Of a stretch of 64,000 bases of DNA, positions 10,893 through 14,016 are shown in pieces. Origin of the DNA: an uncultured SAR116 cluster alpha proteobacterium (lineage in GTDB: Bacteria > Pseudomonadota > Alphaproteobacteria > Puniceispirillales > Marisalimonadaceae); NCBI GenBank assembly GCA_902593735.1, contig CACJJL010000002.1, positions 62,001-126,000 on the forward strand, given 5' to 3'. Positions within the stretch are counted from its first letter, which is position 1, and every line of letters begins with the position of its first letter. The notes beneath the pieces were generated by a model. The model saw nothing but the letters and a program-made list of their open reading frames with translations. It was not told the DNA's origin and searched no databases. A program made the position numbers and the translations under genes.

Positions 10893-11516
10893 ATGATAAA
10901 AATTGTATCTAAGACTGATCTTGTAACATGTATTCATAAGGTAAGAAATGCAGGTGATAAAGAGCGATTAAATGATAAATATAAGCAGGCAAGTGTTTTA
11001 GTATTATTCATTAATGACGAAGTAAAAAAAACCAGTTCAATTTTAATGATTAAGAGAAGAGATAATTTAAGAAAACATGCAGGCCAAATAGCTTTTCCAG
11101 GTGGAAGAAAAGAAAAAGAAGATTTAAATTTAGAAGAGACAGTAAAAAGGGAAACTGAAGAAGAAATAAACGTTTCTAGTAAGGAATACAATATAGTTGG
11201 AAGTTTCCCAAAATTTTTTACTGGGACAGGTTATGTTGTTACACCATTTCTTGGTATTATTAAATCTAATTCAAATTGGAAAAAAGTGATAAAACCAAAT
11301 CTTAGTGAGGTGGAACAAATTTTTTCCCCACCTATTAATTATCTATTATCACCAAAATATCATTTAAGAGAAAAACCTCCAATTAACTCAAGCATGTCCA
11401 TGACATGGACAATTAACTATAATAATAAAAATATTTGGGGGTTAACAGCAAGGGTTTTAGTCACTATATCTGCAGGATTAGGTTTGAGGGAGTTTCCACC
11501 GTGCGACGATATTTAA
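10893..11516 (+). CDS. CoA pyrophosphatase, Nudix family (NudL/UPF0035 type)
   Basis: A 207-residue Nudix hydrolase. The UPF0035 element 'LMIKRRDNLRKHAG' followed by 'FPGG' (51-71) and the Nudix core 'RETEEE' (86-91; Mg-binding E87, E90, E91) identify the CoA pyrophosphatase branch, which cleaves CoA and acyl-CoA to phosphopantetheine and 3',5'-ADP. The loop between GG and RE is longer than in the canonical box, as usual for this branch. It overlaps the next small membrane gene and precedes the CCA-adding enzyme, a known alphaproteobacterial order. No clear ribosome-binding site. Confidence 0.85.
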   Translation: MIKIVSKTDLVTCIHKVRNAGDKERLNDKYKQASVLVLFINDEVKKTSSILMIKRRDNLRKHAGQIAFPGGRKEKEDLNLEETVKRETEEEINVSSKEYNIVGSFPKFFTGTGYVVTPFLGIIKSNSNWKKVIKPNLSEVEQIFSPPINYLLSPKYHLREKPPINSSMSMTWTINYNNKNIWGLTARVLVTISAGLGLREFPPCDDI

Positions 11517-11755
11517 TTATACTTACAGCAATAATATTTTCTATAGGTCTTTTTTTCTTAACAAGATACATTCTAAGTAAACTAACAAAAAATAATCAAA
11601 TTTTTTACTCAACATTAGTAAGTGTTGTTGGTTTTTGTGTTTTTGTTTTATCATGCTTTATGTATTTAGAATTAGATTCTTTTGATCCAAGTTACTCTTA
11701 TCAACCACCCTCGATAATTGACGGAATAGTTAAAGATGGTAATTTTTCGAAGTAA
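11501..11755 (+). CDS. Small membrane protein, DUF6111 family
   Basis: An 84-residue protein starting at GTG 11501, preceded by GAGGGAG at about eight bases. Longer in-frame readings reach further into the Nudix gene but lack this site. Two hydrophobic segments (about 5-25 and 33-57) are followed by a short tail with 'YQPPSIIDGIVKDGNF'. Small two-helix proteins ending in a 'PP..IDG.I..G.F' motif between a CoA pyrophosphatase and a CCA-adding enzyme match the DUF6111 family. The function is unknown. It overlaps nudL by 16 bases, and its stop overlaps a candidate ATG of the next gene (TAATG at 11753-11757). Confidence 0.7.
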   Translation: MRRYLIILTAIIFSIGLFFLTRYILSKLTKNNQIFYSTLVSVVGFCVFVLSCFMYLELDSFDPSYSYQPPSIIDGIVKDGNFSK

Positions 11756-13093
11756 TGAGGTATTTGAATAATAAAAAATAAATTTATAAATTTTTTTAAA
11801 ATAGATCATAATATTGAAGCTATTTTTAATCTTGCAGAGAATATTGGTGTTAAAATTTGGATTGTTGGTGGGGCTTTAAGAGATTACCTGACTGATGAAA
11901 TAGTAACCGATATTGATTTTGTTATAAATGAAGATATAAAAAAATTCGCAAAAAAAATAAGTAAAAATAATATTATTGTTAAAGACAATTACATAAAATA
12001 TAAAACCATATCACTTATAATTAATAAAAAAGAATATCATATAACTAGCCTCAGGAAGGATCTAATTTCTTATGGAAGATCTGCATTAGTTGATATCGCT
12101 ACTAATTTGAACGATGATGTCAAAAGAAGAGATTTTACTATTAATAGCTTATATTTAGACTCTAAAGGAAATTTAACTGATTTTCTTAATGGAGAAAATG
12201 ATATAATCAATAGAAAGCTTGTCTTCATAGGTAATCCTGTAGAAAGAATTGAAGAAGATTGTTTAAGAATTCTAAGATTTTGTCGTTTTTCTGGAAATTT
12301 TGATTACAAAATGCCAAAAATTCTTCAAGAAGAAATTACTTTAAGAGTTCCCAAAATCATTGATTTATCAAACAAGAGAATTAGGGATGAGATAGATAAA
12401 ATCTTATTAGTTAAAAATTGTTATAAATGTTTTTTAATGATGACAAAATTAACTTTAGATAAATATCTTTTAATTAATAAAAATAATTATAATAGATCTG
12501 AAAAAGCTTCTGGATTTGTCATAAACAACTTCGAAATAATTGATTTTATTAAATTAAATGCGATAACTACAGTGCATAATGAGAATTTAGACTTAATTTC
12601 TGTAATAATGATTCATTTATATGGGGATAATAATATTGACAAAATAATTAATAGGTTTGATTTAAATAAAAGAAAAATAAAATTTTTACATTTTGTTAAA
12701 CAAATAATTAATTTAAAAATTAATATTAAAAATGATTTTTTGAGGTCACAAGCTGTTAGGAAAAAACAGATCAATATCCTTCAATTAATTTGGCAACTTA
12801 GATGTATTATAAATTCAAAAAAAAAAGGATTATTTATTAAGGATCGGATTCCATTTAATTGGTATAGACTTGCATTGTTGCATATTTTGTCATTTGAAAA
12901 AATAAAAGATATTGATGTATTTGAAATAAAGTGGCCTATATTTCCATTAGATAGAGAAGAAATAGTGAAATTAAAGAAAACAGTTACACATGATCAAATT
13001 GAAAAATTATTTTTTCAAGCTGAAAGGTTTTGGGTAAACAATAATTTTAAAAGTTCACCAAAAGAAATTTCAAATTTTTTAGAAAAAATTTAA
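11755..13093 (+). CDS. cca: CCA tRNA nucleotidyltransferase, 5' end frameshifted as read
   Basis: A class II polymerase-beta-type enzyme that adds or repairs the tRNA 3' CCA. The active-site block 'VGGALRDYL' and the metal dyad D-I-D lie at about residues 37-54; then come 'RRDFTINSLYLD' and 'RIEEDCLRILRFCRF' and a helical C-domain. In the frame encoding all this, no ATG, GTG or TTG occurs between the in-frame TGA (11765-11767) and a TTG at 12107, which is after the catalytic block. The ATG at 11755 (GAAG upstream, coupled to the DUF6111 stop) reads nine codons to TAA. Removing one A from the A6 run at 11773-11778 joins it perfectly to the enzyme frame (445 residues). Sequencing error, slippage rescue, or AUA/AUU initiation are all possible. 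Confidence 0.8.
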
Positions 13094-13104: not shown

Positions 13105-14016
13105 ATGTCTGTAAAAAATGAAATGATTAAAAATTTAAGTGAAAAAGAATGTTTGGACAATTTTCAAACACTACAAAACAAAAAAGAATTAACAAGTTCT
13201 TGGTTCAAAGAGCTTCGTGATAAAATTTGTAATTCTTTTGAAGAAGTTGAAAACAAAAAAATAAATAAAAAACAGAAAATAGCATTTGATCAAAATAAAT
13301 GGGAAAGAGATGGAGGAGGTGGAGGAACAATATCAATAATGCGTGGTAACGTTTTTGAAAAGGTTGGTGTTAATATCTCAACAGTACACGGTGAATTCTC
13401 TAATGAGTTTAGACAACAAATACCTGGAGCAGAAGAAAATGGTCTATTCTGGGCATCAGGTATTTCAGTTGTATCACACATGTGTAACCCATATGTACCA
13501 GCGGCGCACATGAACACAAGAATGTTAGTGACGGGTAAAGGTAATGAGAAAAAAATTTGGTTTGGTGGGGGAGGCGATCTTACGCCAACTTTCGATGACG
13601 TTAACTCGTCAAATATATTTCATCAAGAACTTAAAAATATATGTGATAAATATGATGAATCTTATTATCCTAAATTTAAGAGTTGGTGTGATGAGTATTT
13701 TTATTTACCTCACAGAGAAGAGCCTCGTGGAGTAGGAGGAATTTTTCTTGATTATCTATGTAATGAAGACTGGGAAAGAGATTTCTCTTTTATAAAAGAT
13801 ATTGGATCGACATTCTTAAGTTCTTATTTAAAGATAGTTAATAATAGATTGAATAAACAATTTGACAAAAAAGACAAAGAGTTACAATTAATTAAAAGAG
13901 GTCGTTATGTAGAGTTTAATTTGTTATATGACAGAGGCACAATTTTTGGATTGAAAACTGGTGGAAATACAGATGCTGTATTAATGAGTTTACCTCCAAA
14001 AGTTATTTGGAATTAA
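13105..14016 (+). CDS. hemF: Oxygen-dependent coproporphyrinogen III oxidase, C-terminally short
   Basis: A 303-residue HemF, which converts coproporphyrinogen III to protoporphyrinogen IX with O2. Conserved stretches are 'GGGGTISIMRG' (71-81), 'GVNISTVHGEF' (88-98), 'NPYVPAAHMNTRM' (128-140), 'WFGGGGDLTP' (152-161), 'RGVGGIF' and 'GLKTGGNTDAVLMSLPP'. After LPP only KVIWN remains, whereas family members usually carry about 25-30 more residues (WEYDYQP... tail). No other frame downstream restores that tail. The N-terminus is about 30 residues longer than minimal. It sits 12 bases after cca and upstream of the bc1 operon, where haem is needed. Confidence 0.9.
   Translation: MSVKNEMIKNLSEKECLDNFQTLQNKKELTSSWFKELRDKICNSFEEVENKKINKKQKIAFDQNKWERDGGGGGTISIMRGNVFEKVGVNISTVHGEFSNEFRQQIPGAEENGLFWASGISVVSHMCNPYVPAAHMNTRMLVTGKGNEKKIWFGGGGDLTPTFDDVNSSNIFHQELKNICDKYDESYYPKFKSWCDEYFYLPHREEPRGVGGIFLDYLCNEDWERDFSFIKDIGSTFLSSYLKIVNNRLNKQFDKKDKELQLIKRGRYVEFNLLYDRGTIFGLKTGGNTDAVLMSLPPKVIWN

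Follow-up and report, generated by a model that had tools for sequence, protein, structure and literature searches.

To our knowledge, few bacterial genes that start at AUU or AUA have been established, and IF3 discriminates against both codons. Escherichia coli has two AUU-start genes, infC and pcnB (PMC9410913). The AUU start of pcnB, the gene for poly(A) polymerase I, is credited in PMC9764084 and PMC9410913 to Binns and Masters 2002, and it helps to keep the level of the polymerase low (PMC9764084); in the MG1655 record, this ATT can be read directly after a GAGG motif. In Staphylococcus aureus, infC starts at AUA, while the conserved starts of ccpN (AUA) and cvfC1 (AUU) have been demonstrated by ribosome profiling and reporters, with AUA/AUU yields of about 10% of AUG in poor medium and, for ccpN, of up to 30% in rich medium (PMC13009471).

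The putative CCA-adding enzyme gene (cca) of the SAR116 bacterium described here can be compared with each of these systems. By profile match, pcnB is its homologue among the class II nucleotidyltransferases, and its AUU follows GAGG; however, pcnB encodes a poly(A) polymerase of a gammaproteobacterium, whereas the gene studied here is alphaproteobacterial. The starts of infC (AUU in E. coli, AUA in S. aureus and in the order of the present organism) are likewise conserved AUA/AUU codons placed after a Shine–Dalgarno (SD) motif, but infC is a different gene, and autoregulation by its own product is impossible for cca. Conserved AUA/AUU starts are also the common point with ccpN and cvfC1, those of SAR116 cca being predicted; these are other genes, however, and an extended SD is stressed for them, whereas the SD of SAR116 cca is short.

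The enzyme frame and its product

The window, that is, the whole stretch of 64,000 nucleotides that was analysed, contains the following features around the gene:

11501..11755, + strand: upstream small gene, 84 aa, predicted GTG start, in frame with the CCA gene
11755..11781, + strand: ATG, eight codons and TAA, outside the gene, not conserved
11757..11760, + strand: GAGG, Shine–Dalgarno motif, kept as AGG/AAGG in relatives
11768..11770, + strand: ATA, candidate alternative start codon, position occupied by ATA/ATT in 24 of the 28 genomes of the genus
11771..11773, + strand: ATA, best candidate for the start codon, position occupied by ATA or ATT in each of the 28 genomes of the genus
11771..13093, + strand: putative class II CCA tRNA nucleotidyltransferase, 440 aa, from profile and PDB matches
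13105..14016, + strand: hemF (oxygen-dependent coproporphyrinogen oxidase), ATG start, downstream of the CCA gene

The enzyme frame, which reads IIKNKFINFFKIDHNIEAIFNLAENIGVKIWIVGGALRDYL..., extends from an in-frame TGA (11765-11767) to the stop codon at 13091-13093, and its first ATG, GTG or TTG is the TTG at 12107, beyond the GGALRD and DxD motifs. The ATG at 11755, which forms part of TAATG (11753-11757), opens only eight codons before the TAA at 11779-11781, and a tract of six A (A6) occupies 11773-11778. All of these coordinates bear out the initial annotation, which had described an enzyme frame devoid of ATG, GTG and TTG before 12107, a TGA just upstream of it and a short frame opened by ATG 11755 and closed by TAA, and which was also correct in the geometry that deletion of one A from 11773-11778 fuses this ATG with the enzyme frame. 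Among 62 conserved genes of the window, judged against five relatives in a list that was looked over at its top rather than gene by gene, the CCA gene is a clear outlier, with its first canonical codon at position 113 and those of the next genes at 44, 27 and 26. Moreover, the position of the first canonical codon of the CCA gene differs among relatives (25, 51, 94, 113 and 200) and, thus, the missing start is not due to chance. The upstream small gene, whose TAA lies 15 nt before ATA 11771, has no match in Pfam or NCBIfam. In those sister genera that were inspected, hemF is also located downstream of the CCA gene.

The encoded protein matches PF01743 (PolyA_pol head domain) with 85 bits against a cut-off of 23; the GGxxRD, DxD, RRDFTxN and EDxLRxxR motifs are conserved, and the catalytic residues are invariant in relatives. 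The CCA model NF009814 gives 140.6 bits (cut-off 290) and the pcnB model TIGR01942 gives 95.3 bits, both below their own NCBIfam cut-offs, and the best PDB matches of the protein are CCA enzymes. By profile scores and PDB matches, the protein resembles CCA-adding enzymes more closely than poly(A) polymerases, and no other PolyA_pol match occurs in the genome, the assembly of which is 84% complete.

CCA is encoded by each of the 27 distinct tRNA genes that were read in the window's genome and by 33 of the 33 tRNA genes sampled in four relatives (L242-L300, together with those of the window's genome). Thus, the CCA gene need not be essential, and its earlier description as an essential gene is unsupported. 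Since the tRNA genes encode CCA, the enzyme would be needed for the repair of tRNA ends, for which a low rate of synthesis may suffice. Loss of the gene might therefore be bearable, and a pseudogene could be imagined; however, open frames of about 440-460 aa in 28 same-genus genomes, invariant catalytic residues and a dN/dS of 0.13-0.19 in the head domain, which denotes purifying selection, leave this explanation a practically negligible probability, and the selection data rule it out. A connection of the weak start with the encoded CCA was also considered, but it has no diagnostic value, because CCA is likewise encoded in relatives whose starts are canonical.

The start region in same-genus genomes

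A search of 40 same-genus genomes provided 29 matches, one of which is the window's own, and the 5' end is complete in 28 of the 29. The proteins of these 28 are about 45-84% identical and the enzyme frame is open in all of them, while a canonical start is absent from the beginning of the gene in every one; in 20 of these genomes, no canonical codon occurs anywhere from the upstream stop to the catalytic motif. In the alignment on WIVGG, the column located 29 codons before this motif (11771-11773 in the window) is ATA in 10 genomes and ATT in 18, and it is a better candidate for the start than the preceding column (11768-11770), where ATA/ATT is found in 24 of the 28 and AAA, AAT or GTT in the rest. 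In the 28 genomes, the ATA/ATT column is preceded at 9-11 nt by the GG of an AGG/AAGG motif, and the 16S rRNA of the window's genome ends GGATCACCTCCTTTCT, so the anti-SD is present. In the gene sequences of these relatives, a missing canonical start is accompanied by a conserved, SD-spaced ATA/ATT column.

The initial annotation had explained the missing start by one extra A in the A6 tract, which would make ATG 11755 the true start, and had offered slippage as a further option. Dropping one A does join this ATG to the enzyme frame; however, independent genomes, most of them devoid of A6 and ATG, have the same open frame without a canonical start. The absence is shared by 28 same-genus and two sister-genus genomes and, therefore, the reading is wrong, a sequencing or assembly error being vanishingly improbable. 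Programmed slippage of the polymerase or the ribosome at the A-run, which the window shares with its nearest relatives, would also fuse ATG 11755 with the enzyme frame, but most relatives lack both the run and the upstream ATG and yet require a start just as much, which renders this option unsupported and extremely improbable. The conservation of A6 in related genomes, proposed at the time as a check, turned out negative: neither the tract nor ATG 11755 is conserved in the genus (for instance, ATAATTAAAAATGAA in L008, L010 and L013) and, thus, neither sequence error nor slippage can explain the missing start.

The upstream gene and the enzyme share one frame in the relatives inspected, and readthrough of stop codons could produce a fusion of both. 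Nevertheless, three stops (TAA, TGA and TGA) separate them in the window, and the number, kind and place of the stops vary in relatives while the SD-like motif stays, so that such a fusion is highly improbable. The start might also be another near-cognate codon further downstream, before the catalytic motif, the ATA/ATT column being kept for other reasons, and Ile codons are also common at columns 12 and 15 before WIVGG. However, those codons belong to the conserved fold and no suitably spaced SD precedes them, whereas the SD-spaced column is invariant and its neighbours vary, which makes a downstream start very improbable.

In clades A and B, the codons from the inferred start to the catalytic motif evolve under purifying selection (dN/dS 0.13-0.47), while clade C has hardly any synonymous change immediately after the start and, consequently, no ratio can be given there. 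Lowered synonymous change is common near initiation sites. As an observation in its own right, codons 28 to 14 before WIVGG in L017-L024 display a pS of 0.003 as compared with 0.24-0.42 in later codons, which would suit a constraint on the mRNA sequence itself. The region of the start has no RNA structure beyond that of shuffled sequences (z 0.75).

Phylogenetic range of the probable weak start

The two genomes of the sister genus g3 also lack a canonical start, and their ATT stands one codon earlier, after AAGAGGG or AAAAGGA. In the tree of the catalytic domain, the window's genus (g1) and g3 are placed together and apart from g2 and g4, with moderate support (87/72). The genes of g4 have an in-frame ATG, which in most of them follows the upstream stop immediately; the gene of g2 has a GTG in frame. 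Canonical codons are found in the 15 members of the order that were read, and the translations of two more members, L045 and L046, show an in-frame Met. Another 18 alphaproteobacteria, a large part of which are A+T-rich, have canonical codons as well; three order loci (L055, L059 and L064) and two class loci (L202 and L211) were left out of this reading. Moreover, 79 of 80 CCA-family genes in a scan of named genomes have a canonical start, and the sole exception belongs to the same genus and is labelled SAR116 cluster. Given the canonical codons in the other genera of the family, in the order, in the class and in the scanned genes, the comparison indicates that one lineage of the SAR116 cluster (order Puniceispirillales) has the weak start as a derived trait. 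The relatives between this lineage and E. coli have canonical starts and, thus, the trait arose separately in pcnB and in SAR116 cca.

Apart from the start codon, the CCA enzymes of g4 (L033-L039, L041 and L042) comprise only about 241-263 aa, head and neck, in all nine genomes, with the catalytic motifs retained and hemF next to the gene, and the g2 gene (L040) encodes 276 aa; these are possibly minimal or altered enzymes.

Probable initiation at AUA or AUU and its possible significance

The CCA gene is not broken; it is very probably translated directly from a non-canonical AUA or AUU conserved in the genus and its sister genus. This was the third option of the initial annotation, and it is the one favoured by the ATA/ATT column in 28 of 28 genomes and its SD spacing. 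Initiation would take place at AUA 11771, or possibly at AUA 11768, chosen by the GAGG at 11757-11760 and read by the initiator tRNA, and the start would have become fixed as AUA or AUU in both genera. Because of the discrimination exerted by IF3, synthesis would be low and IF3-sensitive, and small amounts of this repair enzyme may be enough, since CCA is already present in the tRNA genes. Control of the CCA gene by IF3 and an IF3-limited yield are suggested by the cases of E. coli and S. aureus, and ribosomes finishing the upstream gene 15 nt before may help initiation. Against AUA 11771, two neighbouring columns are each a possible start and the sister genus uses the other one; against an AUA/AUU start, the SD comprises few bases, and in six genomes belonging to one subclade an in-frame ATG follows eight codons after the inferred start, although this ATG has no SD and is missing from two close relatives of the subclade.

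All 25 same-genus infC genes read keep ATA, in the context GGAGATTTTCAT-ATA-GTTGG or near it, and no canonical codon occurs at their start position. The readable infC genes of other families of the order have ATA at the same place (ATA GCA CGT, ATA GTA CGT), and infC was not found in the window's own genome, an incomplete assembly. In the readable SAR116 genomes (L145-L171 and L212-L235), the ATA of infC follows an SD motif.

A search of the open-access literature found no description of an AUA/AUU start in a CCA-enzyme gene, which is weak evidence of novelty because open-access papers alone were covered. An annotation that allows only ATG, GTG or TTG would trim the enzyme to a fragment without catalytic motifs, or miss the gene, and the lack of a start codon in one assembly is not necessarily an error. 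A second, separate case in the superfamily of E. coli pcnB suggests that selection may keep 3'-end nucleotidyltransferases scarce. It is conceivable, albeit rather doubtful, that IF3 and the CCA enzyme constitute a small start-strength regulon in the SAR116 lineage, in which an AUA-started IF3 would set the level of the repair enzyme, the pairing of infC with a class II nucleotidyltransferase having evolved independently in E. coli. In this case, the repair of tRNA 3' ends would be tied to initiation capacity.
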